Assembly: GCA_018771605.1 (NCBI GenBank)
Contig: CP076324.1
Coordinates: forward strand, 372,001 to 436,000
From: Aquificota bacterium
GTDB lineage: Bacteria; Aquificota; Aquificia; Aquificales; Aquificaceae
Length of the DNA: 64,000 nt
Direction of reading: 5' to 3'
A program made the translations under genes and the position numbers. Below the pieces are notes generated by a model. The model made no database searches and was not told the DNA's origin. It saw only the letters and a list, made by a program, of their open reading frames with translations. The stretch's first letter is position 1; every line of letters starts with the position of its first letter. This document shows, piece by piece, positions 5,677 through 59,490 of the stretch.

Positions 5677-6972
5677 TTAAGATAAAATTTTATCCATCAA
5701 AAACTTTTCTATCTTATCCCTCCATTTTTTGGCCACAAAAAGCACTTCCTCTTGGTCAAGGGTCTTTAACTCTCCCTTCTCTATCAATATTTTACCTTTG
5801 CATATGACCGTATCTATATCGGAGGACTTGGCAGAGTATACAAACTGGGCTATGGGATCATAAAGGGGCTGAAGGTGTGGCCTGTTTGTATCTACAAGGA
5901 TAAGGTCCGCCTCGTAGCCCACCTCCACCTTGCCCGCCTTTATGCCTACGGCCCTAAAGCCCTCCTCCGTGGCTATTCTCAAAGCAGTTCTTGCATCCAT
6001 GGCCTTTGCGTTAAGGCTTGATCCCTTTTGGAGCTTAACCATTACGCTTAGCTCTTCAAGCATGTCCAAGTTATCGTTGGAGGCAGGCCCGTCGGTGCCA
6101 AGGCATACATGAATGCCTCTTTTTACATAATCGCTTATGGGGGCTATGCCAGAGGCAAGCTTTAGGTTGCTCTCGGGACAGTGAAGCACCTTTGCACCGC
6201 TTTCCTTTATCATCTCCCTCTCTTCCTCTGTGGTCCAAACCACATGGGCCATAAGGAGCCTGTGGCTAAGCAATCCAAGGCTATGAAGGTGTTCCACTGG
6301 CCTTTTTCCAAACCTTTCAAGGGATGCCTCCACCTCTTGCTGTGTCTCCGCCGTGTGGGTGTGGATGTATACATCCTCTTCTAAGGCAAGCTCAAGGGAT
6401 TTTTTGAGGGTCTGTGGTGAGCAGGTATATACCGCATGGGGACAAAGCACAGGAAAGACAAGGTCGGAGTTTTTAAACTCCCTTATAAAAGCTTTTGCCC
6501 TCTGTAAATACTCCTCTGGGCTTTTTGCCACCTTTGTTGGGAAGTCTAAGATGCCAAAGCCAAGGCCAGCCCTTATGCCAGCCCTTTGGGCCACCTCCGC
6601 CACAGCCTCCTCAAAGAAGTACATATCCATAAAAAGGGTTGTGCCAGACCTTATGGCCTCCGCAATGCCTACGAGGGCTCCATCCCTTACAAACTCTGGA
6701 GATACAAACTCACCCTCCAAAACCCATATGACCTTTTGAAGCCAGTCCATAAGTGGAAGGTCTGCACCAAGGCCCCTCAGAAGGCTCATGGATATGTGGG
6801 TGTGCATGTTGGCAAAGGAAGGGAAAACTACCTTACCATCGGCATGTATAGTTTGCCTTGACTCTTTTTGAATGCCTTCTCCTATCTCCACAATTAGGCC
6901 ATCCTTTATGCCTATGTCTACAGGCCTCCTTCCTTCTGGCAATAGGGCTTTCTTAATCAACAGGTCCAGCAT
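5677..6972 (-). CDS. mtaD: 5-methylthioadenosine/S-adenosylhomocysteine deaminase-like amidohydrolase
   Basis: 431 residues, the usual length of the MtaD/SsnA/TrzN amidohydrolase group. The metal-binding HTH occurs near residue 58 (NMHTHISMSLLRG), a second His site in HTHTAETQ near 205, a His in LMAHVVW and the catalytic Asp in LGTDGPASN near 315. These are the hallmarks of an active Zn/Fe-dependent purine-ring deaminase acting in methionine salvage or S-adenosylhomocysteine recycling. Substrate choice within the group is inferred. The stop codon abuts tRNA-Pro and TATAAT lies 7 nt upstream of the ATG. Confidence 0.85.
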   Translation of the reverse strand: MLDLLIKKALLPEGRRPVDIGIKDGLIVEIGEGIQKESRQTIHADGKVVFPSFANMHTHISMSLLRGLGADLPLMDWLQKVIWVLEGEFVSPEFVRDGALVGIAEAIRSGTTLFMDMYFFEEAVAEVAQRAGIRAGLGFGILDFPTKVAKSPEEYLQRAKAFIREFKNSDLVFPVLCPHAVYTCSPQTLKKSLELALEEDVYIHTHTAETQQEVEASLERFGKRPVEHLHSLGLLSHRLLMAHVVWTTEEEREMIKESGAKVLHCPESNLKLASGIAPISDYVKRGIHVCLGTDGPASNDNLDMLEELSVMVKLQKGSSLNAKAMDARTALRIATEEGFRAVGIKAGKVEVGYEADLILVDTNRPHLQPLYDPIAQFVYSAKSSDIDTVICKGKILIEKGELKTLDQEEVLFVAKKWRDKIEKFLMDKILS

Positions 6973-9868: not shown

Positions 9869-11143
9869 ATGCTAAGCAGAAGAGAGTTTTTAAAGTATGG
9901 TGGCTCTTTTGCTATTATTTCTATTCTTCCTTCTTGTGCAGAAGCCACCACAAAGAGACCTTTTTTAAACCTTCTTCCAGAGCAAAAAGAGATAGAGATA
10001 GGAAGGTCCTATGTGCCCTACGCCATAGAGGAATTTGATGGGCTATACTCCGATAGGGAAATTCAAAGTTATGTAAAGAACGTTGGCCTTAGCCTTACAA
10101 GGGTGGCAGAAAGGAAGCTACCCTACGAATTTTATGTGGTAAATTCTTCCCAGGTCAACGCCTTTGCCCTTCCTGGTGGGCCGGTTATGATAACCAGGGG
10201 CCTATTGCTTAGGTTAAACTCGGAGAGCGAGCTTGCAAACGTGCTTGCCCACGAGCTTGGGCACCTAAACGCAAGACACCATGCAAGGTTTTTAGAAAAG
10301 CAGTTTGGCCTTAGTCTTCTTTTGAACATAGGGGCCTTGCTCTTGGCAGACAAGCCTTACGGGCAGGTGCTTTTGCAGTTTGGACAGATAGGTGCGGGGC
10401 TTTTGAGCCTAAAGTTCAGCAGGGACCAGGAGAGGGAAGCGGACCAGTATGGCCTTCTCTATGCCTACAAGGCTGGCTATGACCCAATGGGCATGATAAG
10501 AGTTTTTGAGACCTTTAAGGCTATGGAAAAAAGAGAAAGAGCGCCCGAGTGGCTCTCCACCCACCCACTTCCAGAAACAAGGATGGCCGAGGTAAAAAGG
10601 ATGATAGAGACTTTTAAGCCTACAGGCTACTTTATAACAGACACCCAAGACTTCCAAGTTGCAAAGGAAAAGCTTTTTAAGACAAAGCCTTCCTTTGATG
10701 AGTTTGACAAAGGAAAGGTTGCCTTTGCCAAAAAGGATTACAGTCAGGCAAGCAGACACTTCCAAAGGGCCATAGAGCTTTATCCAGAGAACTACACAGC
10801 AAGGGCCTATATGGCCTACATACTTGCCATGGAAGGAAGGACAGGGGAGGCCGAAAGGCATTCAAGTCTTGCACTAAGGACCATGCCCGATGTTTTCCTT
10901 ACAAACTTTGTGCATGGCTATGTAAAGTTTGCCCAAAGGGAATATCAAGAGTCTTTAAGATATCTTCAAAAGGCAAACAGGCTCATACCGGACCATGCCT
11001 CCACCCACTACTACCTTGGAAGGAACTACGAAGCCCTTGGACAAAGAGAAAAGGCCATAGAACACTACAGGATAGCCCTTGAGCTATCTCAAGGCAAGGC
11101 GCCATGGGCGGAGGATGCAAAAGAAAGGCTAAGAAGGTTATAA
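9869..11143 (+). CDS. M48 metalloprotease with C-terminal TPR repeats (BepA-like)
   Basis: 424 residues. The N-terminus combines an SRREFLK twin-arginine-like motif with a possible lipobox (LPSC), so it is exported and may be a lipoprotein. The zinc motif HELGH is near residue 128, with the third ligand in EREADQYG near 190. TPR-like repeats follow from about 270 to the end (for example FDKGKVAFAKKDYSQASRHF). BepA/YfgC-type proteins monitor and degrade misassembled outer-membrane proteins in the periplasm. The final three codons and the stop lie inside the direct repeat that flanks the adjacent mobile elements, so the gene was left intact. Confidence 0.87.
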   Translation: MLSRREFLKYGGSFAIISILPSCAEATTKRPFLNLLPEQKEIEIGRSYVPYAIEEFDGLYSDREIQSYVKNVGLSLTRVAERKLPYEFYVVNSSQVNAFALPGGPVMITRGLLLRLNSESELANVLAHELGHLNARHHARFLEKQFGLSLLLNIGALLLADKPYGQVLLQFGQIGAGLLSLKFSRDQEREADQYGLLYAYKAGYDPMGMIRVFETFKAMEKRERAPEWLSTHPLPETRMAEVKRMIETFKPTGYFITDTQDFQVAKEKLFKTKPSFDEFDKGKVAFAKKDYSQASRHFQRAIELYPENYTARAYMAYILAMEGRTGEAERHSSLALRTMPDVFLTNFVHGYVKFAQREYQESLRYLQKANRLIPDHASTHYYLGRNYEALGQREKAIEHYRIALELSQGKAPWAEDAKERLRRL

Positions 11144-11151
11144 TTTTCTCA
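11130..11151. repeat. Target-site duplication, copy A
   Basis: First of three identical direct repeats of 22-23 bp with a central TTATAAT. This copy contains the end of the M48 protease gene (…AGG TTA TAA). The other copies are at 11363-11384 and 14085-14106. The three copies separate two adjacent mobile elements. Confidence 0.85.
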
Positions 11152-11362
11152 TACGCCGAGTGAGAAATTAATTAGGAAGCTGGGATACCATCATACCTTC
11201 TTGCAAAAAATAAATGAGACAAGAAATGTAGAAGCACGGCATGCCGTGCGACTACTAATAAAAAATCCAAAAGTAGTGGCGGGTCTTGAACCCGCCTGAT
11301 GTTTTATAATCTGGCAGGTTTAAAACCTGCCACTACAAAGGATGAATTTCTCACCCCACGTA
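11152..11362. mobile_element. Miniature inverted-repeat element (MITE), 211 bp
   Basis: The element has no coding capacity and lies between two copies of the 22-bp direct repeat. Its ends are imperfect inverted repeats, TACGCCGAGTGAGAAATT at the left and TACGTGGGGTGAGAAATT on the other strand at the right. These match the ends of the adjacent IS, which could mobilise it. The interior holds several perfect palindromes: GCACGGCATGCCGTGC near 11236, a GGCGGG/CCCGCC hairpin near 11280 and a GGCAGGTTT/AAACCTGCC hairpin near 11312. The last two are nested inside GTAGTGGC/GCCACTAC. Confidence 0.75.
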
Positions 11363-11384
11363 TAAGAAGGTTATAATTTTCTCA
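11363..11384. repeat. Target-site duplication, copy B
   Basis: This is the middle copy of the direct repeat, separating the miniature element from the full IS. Its presence shows that the same target was used for two successive insertions. Confidence 0.85.
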
Positions 11385-11444
11385 TACGCCGAGTGAGAAA
11401 TTCCCTTTAAGCTAAACCTTCCATATCAATAAAAAGACAGCAGG

Positions 11445-11466
11445 GCTACTATAATAGTAGCTCTAA
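11445..11466. promoter_or_regulatory. Palindrome upstream of the transposase gene
   Basis: GGGCTACTA and TAGTAGCTC form a stem of about 9-10 bp with a tiny AT loop, followed by GGAGG and the transposase ATG. It could fold in read-through transcripts and hide the ribosome site, a common way for insertion sequences to limit transposition, or it could be a binding site. The same structure precedes copy 2. Confidence 0.45.
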
Positions 11467-11487
11467 AAATCATCGGAGGTTTTTATC

Positions 11488-12324
11488 ATGGAAATTATAC
11501 CACCTTACCTACGCATCTACCAACAAATCCTAAAAGACCTTGAAAATGCCTTGCCATTCCTTAATGTGCCAAAAGCTAAAGCAGGCAGAAAGCCTAAACT
11601 CACAGACATCCATATAGCAGCCATCTTTATACTCTCCTACATAACCAATACAAAAGTCCTCACCTTAGCTAAACTACTTATTGACCCATCCATACAATCA
11701 TGGCATATCTTCAGAAGATACAGACTCAAGAGAGTATACAGGATATTGAGAGAATACAAGCTTCACAAGCTGAGGCTTATGATTTTAGCAAGGCTTTTGT
11801 ATGGTAAGAAGATAGAACTTGTAATAGATGGAACCATAGTGGACATAGCCAATGTAAACAGGGCGAGGACACAGAAGATAAGGAGGGTAAGAGGGAAGGT
11901 ATGGTGGGCAAAGAGGAGAAGGAAGATAGTTCGGAGAGACAATGGGAAGGTAGTGGAGTTTGAGGAGGTCAGGTATGGCATGTTGATGATGGTGTTATGT
12001 GATAGGTGGGGAAGAGTTTATGATGTGTGGATAAGCTTTGGAAGTGTGCATGAGGTTAGGGCATTTAGGGAAAGGAAGAGAAGGAGTTTATGGTTTAGGA
12101 AGCTTGTGGAGAGTTGTGTGGTGTATGGAGATAGGGGTTATAGGGGTTGTGAAGGTGTTATTGTGTGTGGTAGTAGGGAGATGAGGGCAAAAAGGCAGGT
12201 AGTGGAAGGTGTTATAAGTCAGATAAAGCTTTTTAATGCTGGTAGTGGGTGGAGGACTTTAACTTGTGTGCTTGTGTATGTATATGCTTATGCTATTGGA
12301 TATAGCTATTATAGGAGGCTATAA
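11488..12324 (+). CDS. DDE transposase, copy 1 (C-terminus altered by insertion)
   Basis: 278 residues. Candidate catalytic residues are Asp114 (VIDGT), Asp215 (VYGDRGYRG) and Glu240 (RQVVEGVISQIK), the arrangement of IS4/IS5/IS982-like RNase-H-fold transposases; I cannot fix the family further. A basic stretch (RRVRGKVWWAKRRRK, 132-146) probably binds DNA. The intact copy ends YYRRGELEV. Here the nested IS110-type element replaces GELEV with a single Leu and a stop, so the protein is probably still functional. GGAGG precedes the ATG. Confidence 0.88.
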   Translation: MEIIPPYLRIYQQILKDLENALPFLNVPKAKAGRKPKLTDIHIAAIFILSYITNTKVLTLAKLLIDPSIQSWHIFRRYRLKRVYRILREYKLHKLRLMILARLLYGKKIELVIDGTIVDIANVNRARTQKIRRVRGKVWWAKRRRKIVRRDNGKVVEFEEVRYGMLMMVLCDRWGRVYDVWISFGSVHEVRAFRERKRRSLWFRKLVESCVVYGDRGYRGCEGVIVCGSREMRAKRQVVEGVISQIKLFNAGSGWRTLTCVLVYVYAYAIGYSYYRRL

Positions 12325-12348
12325 GTAATGATTAGTCTTAGACCCTAC

Positions 12349-12377
12349 TTGACAGCATTTGAGAGGGGGTCTATATT
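12349..12377 (+). promoter_or_regulatory. Promoter at the left end of the IS110-type element
   Basis: TTGACA (12349-12354), a 17-bp spacer and TATATT (12372-12377) make a near-consensus sigma-70 promoter pointing into the ribbon-helix-helix and recombinase genes. An AGACCC/GGGTCT inverted repeat (from 12340 to about 12371) surrounds the -35 box and could be an operator. Confidence 0.6.
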
Positions 12378-12419
12378 ATGTGGTTGAAATACTCCTGTAG
12401 TCATGATTGGAGGAATACT

Positions 12420-12599
12420 TTGAAGAGGAAAGAAAAGTTTCAACTATGGATGCCTTCAGAAGTTTTGTGGAAGCTCCGTGCCATAGCGGAAGAGGAAGGA
12501 AGAACGGTGTCAGACCTTATCAAAGAAGCGGTAGCTGAGTGGCTTGACAAAAAGGAAAAGGAAAAGTCAAGACCTATAAAACTGGAGGAGCTTAAATGA
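12420..12599 (+). CDS. Ribbon-helix-helix DNA-binding protein within the IS110-type element
   Basis: I place the start at the TTG at 12420, because GGAGG lies at 12409-12413 with a 6-nt spacer; an upstream ATG at 12378 has no ribosome site. About 59 residues: a beta-strand (KEKFQLWMP) and two helices (SEVLWKLRAIAEEEG; TVSDLIKEAVAEWLDKKEKE) give the typical RHH/CopG pattern. The stop overlaps the recombinase start by 4 bp (ATGA), so the two are coupled. It probably represses the element's own promoter or helps recombination. Such a gene is not a standard component of IS110 elements as I know them. Confidence 0.65.
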   Translation: MKRKEKFQLWMPSEVLWKLRAIAEEEGRTVSDLIKEAVAEWLDKKEKEKSRPIKLEELK

Positions 12600-13854
12600 C
12601 AAAATTTGTTGTGGGAGTGGATGTGGATTCTAAAGCTTGTCAGATATGTGTTAAGGAAGTTTCAAGCAAAAAAACACTACTTAACATAAAAGTTGCAAAC
12701 CTTGAACTGCAGGAGTTTATTGAAAAAAGACTGAAGGAACTTGCTGTGCCTTCTGAGTCTATGGTAGTTATGGAAAGCACTGGTAAATCTTACTTTCTCT
12801 TTCCTATGCATGTTTTTTCTTCCTTTGGTTATCAGGTGAGGGTAGAAAACCCACGCTTTATTAAAGCCTTTGCAGACAGTTTTTCTGTGAGGGTAAAAAG
12901 ACTGACAGGTATGATGCGGAAGTTTTGGCTCTTTATGGAATAGAGAGGTGCATAGGCTCATATAAGGTTTCATATCTTCCAAACGACCTGAAGGCTACCG
13001 TCAGACACTGGGCGAAGCTAAGGAAGGTGAAACAGGAGATAGAAGGATATGCTTTCTCTCAAGCTCTTGTGGTGTTTCCTTTAATTGACGAAGTTTTTGG
13101 AGGAAGTCCTTTAAAGACAAAGATTGGGAGGTTTGCTCTTTCTTACTATGAAGGCTGGCATAACTTGTATGAGAGAGATTTTCAGACTTTCAAGGAAGAA
13201 GTTTATAGCCATGTGAGGCGTGCAAGGAACACAGACAAGTTTTTAGACCTGCTTTACAGGTATGCGGAGAAGATAGCCAAGACAGGTTATAAGCCAACAA
13301 GCAGGCAGGTAGAACTTCTCAGGCTTGCTTTGAGAGAGCTTGAGGAATACGAGAAGTTAATAAGGCTTGTGGAAGAGGAGCTTATAAGGATAAGCAGAGG
13401 AATAGAAGAGGTTGAGCTTTTGAAGAGCATACCTGGGATAGGTGATTTGAGCGCTGTTGTGCTGTATGCGGAGATAGGGAATATAGACAGGTTTAGAGAT
13501 AGAGACGACCTTTGGGCATATTTTGGTATGGACCCGAGAAACGAAGAAAGCGGAGAAAGCGTCAGGAGAAGTAGCAAGATTTCCAGAGCTGGAGTGTCTT
13601 ATGTTAGAGGTTTGCTATACATGATAGCCTGCTCTCTAATAAGGAAAGGTGCGCCATATTTTGAAACATACTGGCAGTTAAGGAAAAAAGGCAAGAGCCA
13701 TAAAGAAGCTTTGATAGTAATAGCTCACAAGATAGTGAGGATAATCTATGGTGTTTTGAAAGGAAGGTTTCCGTGCAGGAAGTTTGCAGGTCATATAAGC
13801 AAGTCAGTGGTAGATTTTGATGAGCTTATTTATGAGGTGCAGGAAGATGAGTAA
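12596..13854 (+). pseudogene. IS110-family DEDD recombinase, frameshifted
   Basis: Two overlapping frames together encode one IS110-type protein of about 420 residues. The first frame supplies VGVDVDSK with the first catalytic Asp and MESTG (Glu60). It then runs off at the expected KTDxxDA motif. In the -1 frame the DNA reads KKTDRYDAEVLALYG and continues to the end, including the GDLSAVVLYAEIG and LWAYFGMDPR region typical of the C-terminal transposase_20 domain. The shift occurs in an A5 run near 12895-12899; six A residues would restore one frame. Either one A was lost or ribosomes slip from AAA to AAA. Confidence 0.8.
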
Positions 13855-14000
13855 GGGCGGAAGAGCGGGCTTCATGTTCATTGCCCTGCATGCGGGCGTT
13901 AGGAGGCGTGCCCCCTTCCGCTCTTTTAATGTGTTCCTGCGGGCGGACATTATAGATACCCCAAAAGCGGGTGTTCGGAGGATTGCCCTGGGAACACAAA
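13855..14000 (+). ncRNA. Candidate bridge/seek RNA of the IS110-type element
   Basis: This non-coding tail of the element follows the recombinase stop and can form two successive hairpins. In the first, AAGAGCGG (13861-13868) pairs with CCGCTCTT (13918-13925) and encloses a GCCC/GGGC stem. In the second, GTGTTCC (13931-13937) pairs with GGAACAC (13991-13997), extended by GGGC/GCCC and with an apical CCC/GGG stem and internal loops. IS110/IS1111 elements encode such two-loop RNAs that specify target and donor DNA; in the IS1111 group they lie 3' of the recombinase gene, as here. The assignment is inference from position and fold. Confidence 0.5.
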
Positions 14001-14084
14001 AAATAAAAACTTTGCTAACTAAATACTTGACAAAAAATTTTTCGGAGGGGTGAACTTGAGGTCTAATTTCTCACCCGGCGTGTA

Positions 14085-14106
14085 TAAGAAGGTTATAATT
14101 TTCTCA
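14085..14106. repeat. Target-site duplication, copy C
   Basis: Third copy of the direct repeat. It supplies TATAAT (14094-14099) 6 nt before the argJ ATG, and its last base is the first base of that ATG. Because the repeat carries both the upstream gene's stop and the downstream gene's start region, neither gene was damaged. Confidence 0.85.
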
Positions 14107-15236
14107 TGGAAATTTTAATGGGCGTTGGAAAGGCTGGCCTAAAGTCTGGAGAAAAACCAGACATACTTGTAGTGCTTTTGCCACAAACATGTAGTGCTTC
14201 CTTTCTTTTTACAAAAAATCACTTTAAATCTGCCAGCGTGCTTTACTCCCAAAAGGTCTTTAATGGAAGGGTAAGAGCTATGGTGATAAACAGCGGGAAC
14301 GCCAACTGTGGCGTTGGGAGGGAAGGGCTTTTGCATGCGGAACTTATGGCAAAGAGGGTGGCAGAAAAACTTGATGTGGAAGAGGATGAGGTGCTTGTCT
14401 TTTCCACAGGTGTGATAGGAAAGCCCTTACCCATAGATAGGGTACTTTCTGGTATAGATTCTGCCTGTGAAATCCTTGAACCCCTTGACCTAAAGAGGGC
14501 AAGCGAGGTAATATCCACCACTGATAGCTTCCCCAAGTATGACTTTGTGAAGAGGGATAAATTGGAGGTCTTTGGCTTTGCCAAGGGTGCTGGTATGATA
14601 CATCCCAACATGGGAACTATGCTTGCCTTTGTCTTTACCAACGCAGACCTAAGGGAGGATATCTTGGAAAGGCTTCACAAGGACATAAACGATAGGACTT
14701 TTAACTCCATAAGCGTGGATGGATGTATGAGTACCAACGATAGCTTTGGCCTCATAAGCCTTGGGTTTGTAAAGGAGGACCTACAAAAGGTGAGCGATGC
14801 CATAGAGGAGGTCTCACTTAGCCTTGCCAAGAAGATAGTTCAAGATGGTGAAGGAGCCACAAGGGTCATAAAAGTGGTGGTAAAGAACGCATCACTACAG
14901 CTAAAGGCAAGGTTTATAGCCCAGGCGATAGCCACCTCAAACCTTGTAAAGACGGCAGTATTTGGAAAAGACCCCAACTGGGGAAGGATAGTGGCGGCGG
15001 CCGGTTCTACAGCCTTTCCTATAGACCAGTTTAAGCTAAAAGTTTATATAGGAAGCCACCTTGTATACGATGGAAAGGTGCATCCCAAGGCCGTAGAGAA
15101 TGCCAAGAAGTATATGGAAGAATCTCAGGAGATTGAGATAACCCTTGACCTTATGGAAGGAAAGGAAAGCTGGACCTACTACTCTTCCGACCTTACCTAC
15201 GACTATATAAAGATCAACGCAGAATATACCACTTAG
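14106..15236 (+). CDS. argJ: Bifunctional ornithine acetyltransferase/N-acetylglutamate synthase ArgJ
   Basis: 376 residues, close to the usual ArgJ length. The autocleavage site is visible as MIHPNMGTMLAF: cleavage before Thr in GTML gives the alpha and beta chains. Other family segments are GNANCGVG, STGVIGKPLP, SISVDGCMSTND and DPNWGRIVAAAG. It recycles acetyl groups in arginine synthesis. Whether it also accepts acetyl-CoA cannot be told. The start lies 6 nt after a TATAAT box and has only a weak AGAAGG ribosome site. Before the insertions it was 6 nt downstream of the M48 protease stop. Confidence 0.92.
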   Translation: MEILMGVGKAGLKSGEKPDILVVLLPQTCSASFLFTKNHFKSASVLYSQKVFNGRVRAMVINSGNANCGVGREGLLHAELMAKRVAEKLDVEEDEVLVFSTGVIGKPLPIDRVLSGIDSACEILEPLDLKRASEVISTTDSFPKYDFVKRDKLEVFGFAKGAGMIHPNMGTMLAFVFTNADLREDILERLHKDINDRTFNSISVDGCMSTNDSFGLISLGFVKEDLQKVSDAIEEVSLSLAKKIVQDGEGATRVIKVVVKNASLQLKARFIAQAIATSNLVKTAVFGKDPNWGRIVAAAGSTAFPIDQFKLKVYIGSHLVYDGKVHPKAVENAKKYMEESQEIEITLDLMEGKESWTYYSSDLTYDYIKINAEYTT

Positions 15237-40674: not shown

Positions 40675-41127
40675 TTACTTTTCAGGCTCGCAGATGTATT
40701 CCATTTCCTGGGTGGGGATGGGGCGAACCTTGGGTTTTTTTGCTACCTTTTTAGCAGGTTTTGTAGGTGGTTTGCTTGTTTGCGTTGTAGAAGACTTTAT
40801 TTCAGGCTTTTTGCTTGTAGCTTTCTTAACAGTGGATGTGGTCTTCTTTTTGGCTACAGGTTTGCTTTCCGTTGGTGTTTTTGCCTTGGGCCTCCAATAA
40901 CATCTTTGTTTTACCTCTGGGGCTATCTGCACTTGTCCGTCCTTTTCTATGACCTGCACACCACCACCAGTGGCTCCAGAAGAAGCACCACCGGATGCAC
41001 CTACATTACCAGTACCACCCGTTCCGCCAGCACTGCCTGTTCCACCGGGCAAAGGCGTTGGAGTAAGCAATGCACCACCTAACCATGGAGCAACGCCACC
41101 AGAGCTTAAAATTTCATAGTCATACAT
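40675..41127 (-). CDS. Low-complexity Gly- and Lys/Pro-rich protein of unknown function
   Basis: About 150 residues from MYDYEILSSG at 41127; the longer frame runs into a structured non-coding segment and is not credible. After a short N-terminus comes a Gly/Ser/Ala/Thr-rich stretch (about 25-60), then a basic Lys/Pro/Thr/Ser-rich half (KPVAKKKTTSTVKKATSKKP). No signal peptide is visible at this start. The end of the neighbouring secreted protein is also Gly/Ser/Gln-rich, so this could be the detached 3' part of that gene, separated by the insert at 41128-41408. That is inference. Confidence 0.45.
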   Translation of the reverse strand: MYDYEILSSGGVAPWLGGALLTPTPLPGGTGSAGGTGGTGNVGASGGASSGATGGGVQVIEKDGQVQIAPEVKQRCYWRPKAKTPTESKPVAKKKTTSTVKKATSKKPEIKSSTTQTSKPPTKPAKKVAKKPKVRPIPTQEMEYICEPEK

Positions 41128-41408
41128 ATACACTTGACTACTAAAAAGGGATGGATTAAATTGTAAACGAGAAAACAGGGAACAGGAAGCCCCACGGAGG
41201 GGAGGTTCCCCAACGATGTGGGATAAAGAGCCTGTTCCATTAGAAGAAGTTAAAGTGTTAGGAAGCCAGTCCCACTTCCTACATGGAGGTGGGAAAGCCC
41301 GCCCTGTGGTGCGGGTTGGGGTTTCGCTGAAAGGTCTCCGAAAGAGGAGACACAATCTAAGCGGAGCCTCTAAAGCAATGGCTACCTTTGCCTATTAATG
41401 TGTATGTT
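41128..41408. other. Structured non-coding segment, possible remnant of an IS200/IS605 right end
   Basis: This segment is rich in strong hairpins: GGAACAGG/CCTGTTCC enclosing CCCCAC/GTGGG and GGGGA/TCCCC (41180-41255), then CCCAC/GTGGG (about 41268-41291), CCCGC/GCGGG (about 41299-41314) and GTCTCC/GGAGAC with a GAAA-type loop (about 41335-41352). A plus-strand open frame (41138-41398) ends in KGLRKRRHNLSG and a stop, which could be a tnpB 3' end. TnpB genes overlap an omega RNA at this place. The frame has no credible start, so at most it is a remnant. A different structured RNA is possible. Confidence 0.35.
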
Positions 41409-55499: not shown

Positions 55500-55710
55500 A
55501 ATTTGCTGAAAACAAATAAGGCAAAAATCTTTTTGCGTTGTGCGCTGTGTAAAAGTGTTATGTTAAAAATTTAAAGGTTAGACTTCCAACCTTTAATCGA
55601 GCAACTGTAAGAATTTAGTAAATGCCTTTGTAGGGGCTGCCTTTTCACGCCTTATAATTTTGGGTAGGTTACGAGTCTATTCCTACAAAGGGTAAACTTC
55701 CCATATTGCA
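55500..55710. other. Intergenic region with inverted repeats
   Basis: TAAAGGTT/AACCTTTA near 55573-55595 forms an 8-bp hairpin that could terminate the hemerythrin mRNA. Further on CCTTTGTAGG (about 55625) and CCTACAAAGG (about 55682) face each other over 47 bp. The MITE at 11152-11362 has a similar CCTTTGTAG sequence, so this may be a related small palindromic repeat. There is no gene. Confidence 0.4.
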
Positions 55711-55731
55711 TAGCTTATAATAATATTGATA
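55711..55731. repeat. Direct repeat (left) of the restriction-modification island
   Basis: A 21-22-bp sequence, identical to 59363-59383, with TTATAAT inside. It lies outside the left inverted repeat of the IS and marks the target duplicated by insertion of the whole island. Confidence 0.8.
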
Positions 55732-56699
55732 TACGCTGGGTGAGAAATTAGACCTCAAGTTCACCCCTCCTGTAATAACTATATCCAATAGCATAAGCAT
55801 ATACATACACAAGCACACAAGTTAAAGTCCTCCACCCACTACCAGCATTGAAAAGCTTTATCTGACTTATAACACCTTCCACCACCTGCCTTTTTGCCCT
55901 CATCTCCCTACTATCACACACAATAACACCTTCACAGCCCCTATAACCCCTATCACCATACACCACACAATTCTCCACAAGCCCCCTAAACCATACACTC
56001 CTTTTCTTCCTTTCCCTAAATGCCCTAACCTCATGCACACTTCCAAAGCTTATCCACACATCATAAACTCTTCCCCACCTATCACATAACACCATCATCA
56101 ACATGCCATACCTGACCTCCTCAAACTCCACTACCTTCCCATTGTCTCTCCGAACTATCTTCCTTCTCCTCTTTGCCCACCATACCTTCCCTCTTACCCT
56201 CCTTATCTTCTGTGTCCTCGCCCTGTTTACATTGGCTATGTCCACCATGGTTCCATCTATTACAAGTTCTATCTTCTCACCATACAAAAGCCTTGCTAAA
56301 ATCATAAGCCTCAGCTTGTGAAGCTTGTATTCTCTCAATATCCTGTATACTCTCTTGAGTCTGTATCTTCTGAAGATATGCCATGATTGTATGGATGGGT
56401 CAATAAGTAATTGGGCTAATGTAAGAACTTTTGTATTGGTTATGTAGGAGAGTATAAAGATGGCTGCTATATGGATGTCTGTGAGTTTAGGTTTTCTGCC
56501 CGCTTTAGCTTTTGGCACATTAAGGAATGGCAAGGCATTTTCAAGGTCTTTGAGGATTTGTTGGTAGATGCGTAGGTAAGGTGGTATAATTTCCATGATA
56601 AAAACCTCCGATGATTTTTAGGGCTACTATTATAGTAGCCCTGCTGTCTTTTTATTGATATGGAAAGTTTGGCTTAAAGGGAATTTCTCACCCGACGTA
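55732..56699 (-). mobile_element. DDE insertion sequence, copy 2 (uninterrupted)
   Basis: 968 bp with inverted repeats TACGCTGGGTGAGAAATT and TACGTCGGGTGAGAAATT. It is nearly identical to copy 1 at 11385-14084 and defines the uninterrupted structure: palindrome, GGAGG, transposase gene, and a stop codon that lies at the inner edge of the inverted repeat. Confidence 0.88.
55748..56596 (-). CDS. DDE transposase, copy 2 (full length)
   Basis: 282 residues ending YYRRGELEV. The candidate triad is VIDGT (Asp114), VYGDRGYRG (Asp215) and VVEGVISQIK (Glu240). It differs from copy 1 at only about ten positions, so both copies are recent. Full-length status makes it the likelier source of active transposase for this family in the window. 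Confidence 0.9.
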   Translation of the reverse strand: MEIIPPYLRIYQQILKDLENALPFLNVPKAKAGRKPKLTDIHIAAIFILSYITNTKVLTLAQLLIDPSIQSWHIFRRYRLKRVYRILREYKLHKLRLMILARLLYGEKIELVIDGTMVDIANVNRARTQKIRRVRGKVWWAKRRRKIVRRDNGKVVEFEEVRYGMLMMVLCDRWGRVYDVWISFGSVHEVRAFRERKKRSVWFRGLVENCVVYGDRGYRGCEGVIVCDSREMRAKRQVVEGVISQIKLFNAGSGWRTLTCVLVYVYAYAIGYSYYRRGELEV

Positions 56700-56769
56700 T
56701 CGGATATTATTATTATCTTTTAACACTTTATTGTCAAGTGTCTATGTATGACTATGGAATTTTAAGCTC

Positions 56770-56866
56770 GTTTATTAAGTGCCTATAAGGAGTTGAAACC
56801 GGTCTCAAAACGCCCAAGCCTCACGCCCACAGCGGGGTTTATTAAGTGCCTATAAGGAGTTGAAAC
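56770..56866 (+). CRISPR. CRISPR remnant: two 30-bp repeats, one 37-bp spacer
   Basis: Identical repeats at 56770-56799 and 56837-56866 begin GTTTATTAAG and end GTTGAAAC. The spacer (56800-56836) is GC-rich. No cas gene is adjacent; the Cmr genes are about 5 kb away. The second repeat is directly followed by the truncated end of a methyltransferase gene. The 70 bp before the first repeat are AT-rich and could be leader or flank. Confidence 0.85.
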
Positions 56867-57327
56867 ATGCTGGCGATATTGGACAGGTCCCCTTCTATTT
56901 TTTCTTTTGCGTACCTTATTATATTGGCATAGGGTGGGTGGGTAAGAACCAGGTCAATGCTGTTGTCTTCAATTTCCCTCAAGTCCCGAACGTCTCCTAC
57001 TTTTACTATTTGTTCGAAGGGGTAGTCGCTATCGAAATTAAGATTTTGCCGGGCCAGCATAACTGCCTCGGGGTTAATATCAAATCCTATCCCTCTTCGC
57101 CCAAGAATTTTGCACTCAATCAAAGTAGTGCCACTGCCCACCATTGGATCGAGAACCGTATCCCCAATTTTAGAGTATCTGAGGATTACATTTCTGGCAA
57201 CTTGCGGAGCGAAATTTCCTCTATACTTAGCACTATGCGTTGCCCAGGTTCCCCTCTCAGGAAAGGACCAAACCGTTGTCAATTCTTCTTGAAAATCATC
57301 CGGACCTAACCGTTCAAAATTGTCCAT
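56842..57327 (-). pseudogene. DNA methyltransferase (SAM-dependent, N4/N6-type), 3'-truncated by a CRISPR repeat
   Basis: 161 codons. Motif I is DPMVGSGTTLIECKILGRR (about 60-78) and the catalytic motif THPPYANIIRYA is near 132. The frame ends MFQLLIGT, which is translated from the CRISPR repeat, so genuine coding stops near 56867. The substrate-binding C-terminal part (roughly 80-120 residues in relatives, by my estimate) is missing, so it is probably inactive. It overlaps the endonuclease gene by 22 bp and was the third gene of the restriction-modification operon. Confidence 0.8.
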
Positions 57328-58235
57328 AGTACCTCCCTTAATACACCTTTTTTCACAAAATAAAGGTTTAATACATAATCAACTTTTTCAAAGCCCTTTC
57401 TTATCTGATTCTTTTGCCCTCTCCATCCGTATCCATCCGTTATCCAAACAAAAGCAATTCCGTTGTTCCTCAGTTCCTCCTGGCGGTTGATGTAAGCATC
57501 CACTATTTCTTGAGGTTTGGAGCCCGTACCGGCGTAAAAATTGACCTCAATGTCAGCTAAAACCTTGCCGCCCTTCATAAGCAAAAAGTCAGCTTTCCGG
57601 TTGGCAAGGGTAGAATCGATTTCTACCCCGTATTTTCGCAGGTAGCTAAAGTACTTCTGCCTCAACACGAAGCAATCTTCCTCTTCCCTGCACACGCTGT
57701 ACAGGATTGGCTCCACCGCTCTCTCCATAAAGCTTCCACTTCGGTTTTTCCGGGCGTTGGTATCCATACCAACCTCAACACCCGCTACATAGTCCCACAA
57801 ACACTGTTTGGCTATTTCCTGAAGGAAAGTTTTCAAACCCGTCTTGTGAAAAAAATTAATAATTTTCTCTATTTCTTTTTCTTCCAATTCTTTTCTGCTA
57901 AAATCATACTCAATAATTTCGTTCTCTTCAGCACCCCTTTCATCAATAACGCTCAATTCCTTCTCTCTAACCGCGATAAGAAGGGGTATTGCTTCCACTA
58001 CTTGTGGATACCTTAAAAGTAAATTCCGCAAATCATCATCAAAATTTTTACTACCAATCAAAGTGCTGAGAATGCTCAACTCTACCCGATATCTTTCTAC
58101 GTTCTTTTTTACCTTAGCCCAGTCAACAAAGAACTCATGATTCCGGTTAGTTGCAACTAATGTGTCGTGAAACAGATTAACAATTTCTTCAGGGCTGTTT
58201 CTGTCCAGTACTTTTGCGTAAGGAGCTATGTTCAT
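57306..58235 (-). CDS. DpnII-family type II restriction endonuclease (predicted GATC)
   Basis: 309 residues. The DpnII-family core is visible as GMDTNARKNRSGSFMER (about 153-170), RKADFLLMKGGKVLADIEVNFY (Asp…Glu-x-Asn, the catalytic region, split) and GSKPQEIVDAY. It should cut unmethylated GATC. It lies between the Dam-type methylase and the truncated methyltransferase, with 11 bp to the former. Codon usage differs from the core genome, which supports acquisition by transfer. Confidence 0.88.
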   Translation of the reverse strand: MNIAPYAKVLDRNSPEEIVNLFHDTLVATNRNHEFFVDWAKVKKNVERYRVELSILSTLIGSKNFDDDLRNLLLRYPQVVEAIPLLIAVREKELSVIDERGAEENEIIEYDFSRKELEEKEIEKIINFFHKTGLKTFLQEIAKQCLWDYVAGVEVGMDTNARKNRSGSFMERAVEPILYSVCREEEDCFVLRQKYFSYLRKYGVEIDSTLANRKADFLLMKGGKVLADIEVNFYAGTGSKPQEIVDAYINRQEELRNNGIAFVWITDGYGWRGQKNQIRKGFEKVDYVLNLYFVKKGVLREVLWTILNG

Positions 58236-58246
58236 CGGCTATCCCC

Positions 58247-59212
58247 CTATTCGTAATTTCTAATTATCACTTCGCGGATCTCCCCCCTTTTCCTAGCATC
58301 CCTGTTGATATACCTCTTTGCTTCCACCCTCTCAATCACAAACCCGTCATAAAGTCGTTCAAAAAAATCGTCTTTATCATTTACATTCTTAGGATCTGAG
58401 TTGCTTAACAACAGCCAGGCACCTTTCGCGTGCATTCTCCGGAAAAATTCAGCTAATCTTTTCTGTTCGTCATCGGTAAACCCGTTTTCCGTATAACCCG
58501 TAAAATTGGCCGTGGAAGACAGAGGACGGTAGGGAGGATCGAAGTAAACCAAAGTCCCTTTCTCTATAAAATCGTCAGCAACACTGAAATCCCCACAAAT
58601 AATCTCCGCTTCCGCCAGCGCTTTAGAAGCTGCCAAAATGTTTTCTGCATCACAAATCCTCGGGTTTTTATATCTGCCAAAAGGAACGTTAAACTCCCCC
58701 TTGCGGTTCATCCTGAACAAGCCGTTGTAACAGGTCTTATTTAAAAATATTATCTGCGCTGCTCTGGAGATCCACCTTTCGCTAAAGCTGGAATAATCAA
58801 AACCTCTGCCCTGCTCGTTAAATTCCCTGCGCACCCTGTAATAATATTCTCTTCTCCCGGCCTCATCTCGCTGGAAAAACTCCTTCTCCATAGTAGCCAG
58901 CTTATTAATCAGCTCCAGCGGAAATTTTTGCACCACCTTATAAGTTAAAATCAGCTCCCGGTTAATATCGATCAGAAAGGCTTTTTTTACCAAGTAATTT
59001 CTTTTGAGAAAGAAAAATACCGCCCCACCGCCAACGAAGGGCTCAACATATTTCTCAATTACTCGTGTTTCCCTAATTTGCGCCGGCAGCCTTGCTTCTA
59101 ATGCTTCCAATAACTGCGTTTTCCCTCCTGCCCATTTTAAAAAAGGTTTAGCCTCAATTTTTTCTAAATTATTTTCTGGCAAAGCAAATAGCTCTACCTT
59201 GGAAAGGACCAT
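58247..59212 (-). CDS. Dam-family N6-adenine DNA methyltransferase
   Basis: 321 residues. FLKWAGGKTQLL (about 24-35) is motif X/I of the alpha class, VEPFVGGGAVFF follows near 57, and DPPYRPLSSTANF near 225 is the catalytic DPPY. It resembles DpnM, which methylates adenine in GATC and protects the host from the adjacent endonuclease. GTAGGAGG is upstream of the ATG. A possible TTGACA lies further upstream. Confidence 0.9.
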   Translation of the reverse strand: MVLSKVELFALPENNLEKIEAKPFLKWAGGKTQLLEALEARLPAQIRETRVIEKYVEPFVGGGAVFFFLKRNYLVKKAFLIDINRELILTYKVVQKFPLELINKLATMEKEFFQRDEAGRREYYYRVRREFNEQGRGFDYSSFSERWISRAAQIIFLNKTCYNGLFRMNRKGEFNVPFGRYKNPRICDAENILAASKALAEAEIICGDFSVADDFIEKGTLVYFDPPYRPLSSTANFTGYTENGFTDDEQKRLAEFFRRMHAKGAWLLLSNSDPKNVNDKDDFFERLYDGFVIERVEAKRYINRDARKRGEIREVIIRNYE

Positions 59213-59362
59213 GTTTTCCTCCTACCTCTATTCAGAAAATATTTGCCTGTCAAATATTATATCTTATCTTGCAGCAGAAAAAGAAAGCAAAATCTCTGGC
59301 TCAAGAAGAAATAAGCTACTTTAAAACCCTTCTCCTCTGTGTCTTTATTCTCACCCCCGCTA

Positions 59363-59383
59363 TAGCTTATAATAATATTGATA
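59363..59383. repeat. Direct repeat (right) of the island, containing the tRNA-Ser -10 box
   Basis: Identical to 55711-55731. TATAAT at 59368-59373 sits 26 nt before the tRNA-Ser gene and is the likely -10 box. Because the repeat was duplicated, the tRNA kept its -10 box, but its -35 region is now the end of the island. Confidence 0.75.
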
Positions 59384-59399
59384 TTTTTACTCCCCATCT

Positions 59400-59490
59400 G
59401 GAGGGGTGGCCGAGTGGACGAAGGCGGGTGATTTGAAATCACCAGTGGGTTCAAAGCCCACCGGGGGTTCGAATCCCTCCCCCTCCGCCA
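59400..59490 (+). tRNA. tRNA-Ser (anticodon TGA)
   Basis: The acceptor GGAGGGG pairs with CCCCTCC, the anticodon stem GGTGA/TCACC encloses loop TTTGAAA (anticodon TGA), and the long variable arm (GTGGG/CCCAC) and T-loop TTCGAAT are typical of serine tRNA. Discriminator G and an encoded CCA follow. The gene for a prenyl synthase on the other strand ends inside it. Confidence 0.95.

Follow-up and report, generated by a model that had tools for sequence, protein, structure and literature searches.

How did a restriction-modification (R-M) system come to lie between two long, exact direct repeats upstream of a tRNA gene? The question is posed by a stretch of 64,000 bases from an Aquificota bacterium (assembly GCA_018771605.1, contig CP076324.1), referred to here as the window. 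It comprises bases 372,001-436,000 of a single-contig genome of 1,722,082 bases, and window positions are counted from its first base. The segment concerned carries a complete insertion sequence (IS) at its left edge and DpnII-type R-M genes as cargo. It is probably a single-IS transposition unit, in which the outer end of the IS and a surrogate end beyond the R-M genes moved the IS and its cargo together. At the level of sequence this is supported by the two edges, one formed by the IS and one by an IS-end-like tip, and by the 23-bp duplication, of the type that this IS makes, which brackets them.

Boundaries of the unit

A first-pass annotation of the window had described identical direct repeats of 21-22 bp at both edges of the segment, a complete IS at the left repeat, a diverged IS-like end inside the right one and no repeat at the inner end of the IS. 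The description is accurate except for the length of the repeat, which is 23 bp (ATAGCTTATAATAATATTGATAT). The two copies enclose a unit of 3,629 bp, bounded as follows.

55710-55732: left copy of the target duplication, 23 bp, exact repeat
55733-56698, minus strand: complete IS, 966 bp, with the transposase gene at 55748-56596 (282 amino acids)
59345-59361, minus strand: surrogate IS-like right end AGCGGGGGTGAGAATAA, running from 59361 to 59345, directly inside the right repeat copy
59362-59384: right copy of the target duplication, 23 bp, containing TATAAT upstream of tRNA-Ser
59400-59490, plus strand: tRNA-Ser (TGA), the upstream region of which is the insertion target

The IS begins directly inside the left repeat copy, and its two 17-base ends agree with each other at 15/17 positions. 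Scored at 14 positions, the surrogate end agrees with the IS end at 10 of them; 0.04% of the positions in the window do as well. Its likeness to the IS is 10/17 in the tip and falls to 16/83 and 23/83 further inward, which is no IS similarity. The unbroken core GGGTGAGAA occurs five times in the 64 kb, each time (5/5) within an element end: the left end of the unit, the inner IS end, two ends at a second insertion site and the surrogate end. All but the inner IS end abut a duplication. At the inner end (56698) there is no copy of the 23-bp repeat; 69 bp of the left end of an IS607-like element are found there instead.

Six pairs of exact direct repeats of at least 20 bp are present in the window, namely the 23-bp pair, three pairs from the second site of the same IS (11130-14107), a pair of clustered regularly interspaced short palindromic repeats (CRISPR) and an unrelated pair. 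The unrelated pair, CCTTTTGAAGCCAGTCCATA, is a 20-bp repeat at 6732 and 40586, 33.9 kb apart and independent of the IS. The second site, 11130-14107, is the promoter of a gene which, from its sequence, we take to be argJ. A miniature inverted-repeat transposable element (MITE) and an IS copy occupy one target there, with three copies of one duplication, and the IS copy is itself split by another IS-like insertion.

Two other origins of the boundaries were considered and rejected: chance origin of the repeat and of the right-end core, and a decayed IS copy as the right end, since the similarity ceases beyond the tip.

The insertion sequence and its family

The genome contains 22 near-full-length copies of the IS and one truncated copy, 95-98% identical. 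The transposase matches the IS982 model with an E value of 2.5e-7 and 30.5 bits, far below the cut-off of 130, and this is the sole model matched by the window protein. All four aligned members of the group match NF033520 (IS982) with a best E value of 1e-12, two of the four being 98% identical to each other; the transposase of one relative also matches IS5 models. When the end ACGCCGGGTGAGAAATT is compared with the IS982 end pattern 5'-AC(N)6T(N)5TT, the AC and the T at position 9 are present and the TT comes one base later. Judged by these matches, the transposase is probably a divergent relative of the IS982 family. Residues D114, D215 and E240 are conserved in the four-sequence alignment and may, by our own assignment, form the catalytic triad. 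A structure prediction of the transposase alone had a predicted local distance difference test (pLDDT) score of 45, too poor for use. No relatives of the transposase were found in PLSDB plasmids, nor by sequence in PDB. A 96%-identical transposase fragment (1003413-1003967) occurs in a genome of another family, whose other copies are 49% identical; recent transfer of this fragment is likely.

Length of the target duplications

The first-pass annotation regarded duplications of this length as uncommon. That holds for IS982 elements, for which duplications of 2-10 bp or none are given in the consulted part of one list (PMC7335449), but not for the present IS, which makes duplications of 19-38 bp as a rule. 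They were found at 15 of its 23 copies, in two cases displaced from the end, by 7 nt and by 2 nt. Of the remaining copies, two have a single duplication in common, five are without any, and the window copy has the surrogate end as its partner. MITEs with similar ends, 128-284 bp long, have duplications of 18-29 bp. The genome has 122 end matches with at most two mismatches, and the reversed pattern gives 14. Transposases from other genera of the phylum that are 48-51% identical to this one are accompanied by duplications of 24-33 bp at 7/11 loci examined and by paired ends at 9/11.

Because it recurs at 15/23 copies, in the MITEs and in the relatives from other genera, the long repeat is the normal signature of this IS. 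A set of 30 duplications was compiled, 23 of the genome's own and seven from relatives, leaving out copies without a duplication. All 30 lie within 18-38 bp and outside the 2-10 bp of IS982. The duplications of this lineage in Aquificota, often situated at promoters, thus exceed the longest ones listed for the nearest family by a factor of about two to four. A literature search that did not extend to ISfinder or to most subscription papers gave no account of this IS or of long duplications centred on promoters.

Cargo and inner flank

Between the IS and the surrogate end the unit contains the following features.

56699-56726: 28 bases identical to the duplication around another IS copy (1,286,538-1,287,503), one half of an older insertion in the promoter of an IS607-like element
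56701-56769, minus strand: left-end fragment of an IS607-like element, 69 bp, 100% identical to 1,286,467-1,286,535
56770-56866: two identical 30-bp CRISPR repeats (56770-56799 and 56837-56866) and one 37-bp spacer
56842-57327, minus strand: second DNA methylase, truncated to about 154 residues where related proteins have about 270; its open reading frame (ORF) ends in the CRISPR repeat
57306-58235, minus strand: DpnII-family restriction endonuclease, 309 amino acids, open (Pfam PF04556, E 2.4e-83)
58247-59212, minus strand: Dam-family (D12) adenine methylase, 321 amino acids, open (PF02086; TIGR00571 above its cut-off)

The cargo is thus the one named in the first-pass annotation. The gene next to the IS607-like end at 1,286,467 is a tnpA that carries MerR and resolvase domains, the makeup of an IS607-type tnpA. 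Elsewhere in the genome a second IS copy sits in this IS607-like element at the same target point, in opposite orientation and with a 28-bp duplication, so the inner flank of the window unit appears to be one half of a site where the IS had previously entered a promoter of this kind. A stretch of 37 bp at window 41102-41138 also matches the left end of the IS607-like element, at 95%. The CRISPR repeat of the cargo was not found elsewhere in the genome with up to three mismatches; it occurs in one of 40 relatives, with three mismatches.

The same order of R-M genes is found in one Cloacimonadota and two Clostridiales metagenome-assembled genomes (MAGs), at 52-67% identity. The DpnII endonuclease has matches in six of 135 other genomes of the phylum, at most 43% identical, and the best among the matches listed on plasmids is 38%. 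The gene is absent from 13/13 other genomes of the same genus, and neither a relative with the R-M genes at this locus and no repeats nor an empty site already bearing two repeat copies, the cases that would speak against the proposal of the first-pass annotation, was seen. A foreign origin of the R-M system is likely, because the gene is absent from the genus and has closer relatives in the Cloacimonadota and Clostridiales MAGs.

Mechanism of insertion and its alternatives

The first-pass annotation had proposed that one IS and a distant surrogate end moved the cargo, and the agreement of the outer end, the surrogate end and the 23-bp duplication argues for this. In the donor, a DpnII-type R-M system of foreign origin would have had a CRISPR remnant and an IS607-like element as neighbours. 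The IS would have entered the tnpA promoter of the IS607-like element next to the R-M genes. Its transposase would then have paired the outer IS end with the surrogate end beyond the R-M genes, and the whole would have gone upstream of tRNA-Ser by strand transfers about 23 bp apart, the duplications suggesting a wide staggered cut. Both the donor and the order of the steps are reconstructed from the present arrangement. This IS habitually enters AT-rich sites, often near promoters, with a spacing that is wide and varies from site to site.

Several observations weigh against a single-IS transposition. The surrogate end agrees at just 10 of the 14 scored positions, and positions 57634 and 57845 in the cargo, in the same orientation, also score 10, so that the score alone cannot single it out; it is singled out because the core GGGTGAGAA is confined to element ends within the window. 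The G+C content of the cargo, 42.4%, equals the 42.5% of the window, and composition therefore gives a foreign origin no support. No second single-IS cargo unit was found when 120 listed end-like sequences and the surrogate end were compared all against all, together with 20 stretches of 7.5-8.3 kb. The donor locus was not found. A syntenic empty site was found neither on the tRNA-Ser side in 40 relatives (upstream sequence at 12 loci, ORFs at six) nor on the hemerythrin side in 16 relatives. At six same-genus loci presumably smpB lies upstream of tRNA-Ser, in one of them with another ORF between, and the hemerythrin match in relatives lies elsewhere in the genome or on another contig. Since the neighbours differ in this way and a syntenic empty site is lacking, the insertion event is deduced from its product.

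The alternative that survives best is a two-step origin, in which the IS alone inserted upstream of tRNA-Ser, homologous recombination between IS copies produced an IS-cargo-IS arrangement, and the right IS was then deleted down to its tip. The many copies, 95-98% identical, would provide the substrate, and another pair of copies shares one duplication across 20.4 kb. The deletion, on the other hand, would have to have left 17 bases that match the true ends at 10/17, with no IS sequence inward of them and beside a perfect duplication, and this origin is improbable. Still less probable is an origin of the right end from an older MITE, of which it would be the relic, with the IS and cargo arriving later at the target that the MITE had used: a MITE and an IS do share one target at argJ, but a whole-genome search with the cargo gave no MITE-like match and the similarity ends at the tip. 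Insertion of the R-M system by itself, with a long target duplication independent of the IS, can be given hardly any weight, for although there is a proposal that R-M systems insert themselves and leave target duplications of long and variable size (in the part of PMC3031569 consulted, citing Nobusato 2000), the repeat directly abuts the outer IS end and resembles, in length and base makeup, IS duplications without R-M genes.

Target preference and promoters

The 30 duplications have a mean AT content of 83%, against 57% for the window. At their edges the preceding base is C in 19, the duplication starts with AT in 22 and finishes with AT in 21, and the following base is G in 18. The exact hexamer TATAAT is present in 15 of the 30, where a first-order Markov model gives a mean of 6.5 (P 0.0002).

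Two interpretations of this preference were compared. One concerns sequence only: the IS would prefer AT-rich DNA with C/AT...AT/G edges (the strokes marking the edges) without sensing promoters, and the proximity to promoters and start codons would be secondary. Its chances are about even. The other, which is clearly the more doubtful, is that promoters themselves are what the transposase looks for, perhaps in the form of melted RNA-polymerase complexes, and that the element is a promoter-homing IS which spares its targets. Strand transfers would then be spaced so as to take in the -10 element, starting a little upstream of it, and to reach the start codon, and the downstream gene would retain a copy of both. 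In addition, the IS tip TTCTCA, placed upstream of TATAAT, would rebuild a -35/-10 promoter; the role of TTCTCA as a -35 element is speculation.

The position of the sites speaks against a preference for sequence only. At 15/23 own sites (14 without the tRNA) the nearest gene start or tRNA is no more than 60 nt away, against 96/300 AT-rich controls scored for ORFs. The edge falls inside an ATG start at 10/23 own sites, against 55/7570 random AT-rich 25-mers; the set of 23 own sites used for the ATG and gene-start counts differs slightly from the compiled set, and two own sites with an edge ATG were removed by a filter against longer upstream frames. A TATAAT-like hexamer (5/6 matches) occurs 8-9 nt inside the upstream edge at 13/23 own sites, where shuffling gave a mean of 3.6 and a maximum of 10 in 5000; this offset was picked post hoc, and the adjoining pairs of offsets give counts of 8 and 9 out of 23. 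The exact hexamer is at this offset in seven of the ten own sites that possess it, which places TTCTCA 16-17 bp upstream, the spacing at the window unit being 14 bp. Targets upstream of tRNA genes include tRNA-Ser at the window unit and tRNA-Val for a copy in a relative.

Promoter sensing is called into question by the controls and by the relatives. ORF starts make up 21/124 of the AT-rich 25-mers ending in AT/G, and of the 21 AT-rich 25-mers in the window whose end is an ORF start, seven contain TATAAT, so that 15/30 is not clearly above start-proximal DNA. Among the relatives none of five (0/5) has the exact TATAAT at offset 8-9, and their seven sites have no clear TATAAT peak at any one offset. 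If the promoter preference is real, this IS would be a simple system for studying how strand transfers can be placed so far apart, and at such variable distances, by a transposase, and how genes such as argJ or tRNA-Ser stay expressed when an IS settles before them.

A second large unit

A search of related genomes for other cargo between such ends had been suggested in the first-pass annotation. In the present genome, the all-against-all comparison of the listed ends recovered MITEs and IS copies, among them one copy that a later insertion has lengthened to 2.7 kb. The only large units beyond these are the window unit and a two-IS unit of 20.4 kb; a second single-IS unit was not among them. 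The 20.4-kb unit (160,009-180,442 of the genome) consists of two IS copies in direct orientation and the DNA between them, bracketed by one 27-bp duplication. It carries genes for a sulfite/phosphoadenosine phosphosulfate (PAPS) reductase fusion, ATP sulfurylase, TauE and a tetrapyrrole methylase, as well as the large and small subunits of a NiFe-hydrogenase and a maturation protease. The large subunit has matches in 16 relatives that are at most 49% identical over partial stretches. For the right flank no syntenic empty site was found in 16 relatives. The simplest reading is a composite transposon, recombination being a possible origin. The same IS appears to carry a foreign R-M system by means of one surrogate end and probably also a 20-kb hydrogenase/sulfate-assimilation block.

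Comparison with known systems

With the IS982 family this IS shares a length of about 1 kb, ends that start with AC and have T at position 9, and one putative DDE-type transposase of about 280 amino acids; it differs in its 18-38-bp duplications and in model scores far below the cut-off. The cargo has the full gene set of a DpnII-type R-M system (Dam-type methylase, DpnII endonuclease and second methylase) and departs from it in the truncation of the second methylase. Unusually long duplications are also made by the IS1202 group of DDE insertion sequences, 16-28 bp according to the sections of PMC10132070 consulted, where no conserved target was found for the long-duplication members; the IS1202 transposase differs in being larger and TnsB-like. 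Joint insertion of an IS and R-M genes has a precedent in the one-ended insertion of a PaeR7I R-M plasmid by IS1 in Escherichia coli (as far as described in the consulted part of PMC3031569), with a target duplication and, in one product, a far end resembling an IS end. That case involved IS1, a 9-bp duplication, a whole plasmid and laboratory selection, and concerned 2/28 products.

ISEcp1/ISEc9 belongs to the IS1380 family, and its transposase is not known to be related to that of the present IS. Surrogate-end transposition with weak right ends is described for it (PMC12116815, in the portion consulted), and the likeness covers the use of a single IS, whose outer end is normal while the far end matches weakly, and a duplication that encloses both IS and cargo; the duplication in ISEcp1/ISEc9 is 5 bp. 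As judged from these features the window unit probably works like ISEcp1 and is not a member of that group, because the window transposase matches the IS982 model only. Surrogate-end transposition is already known, and the new part is the long, promoter-associated duplications.

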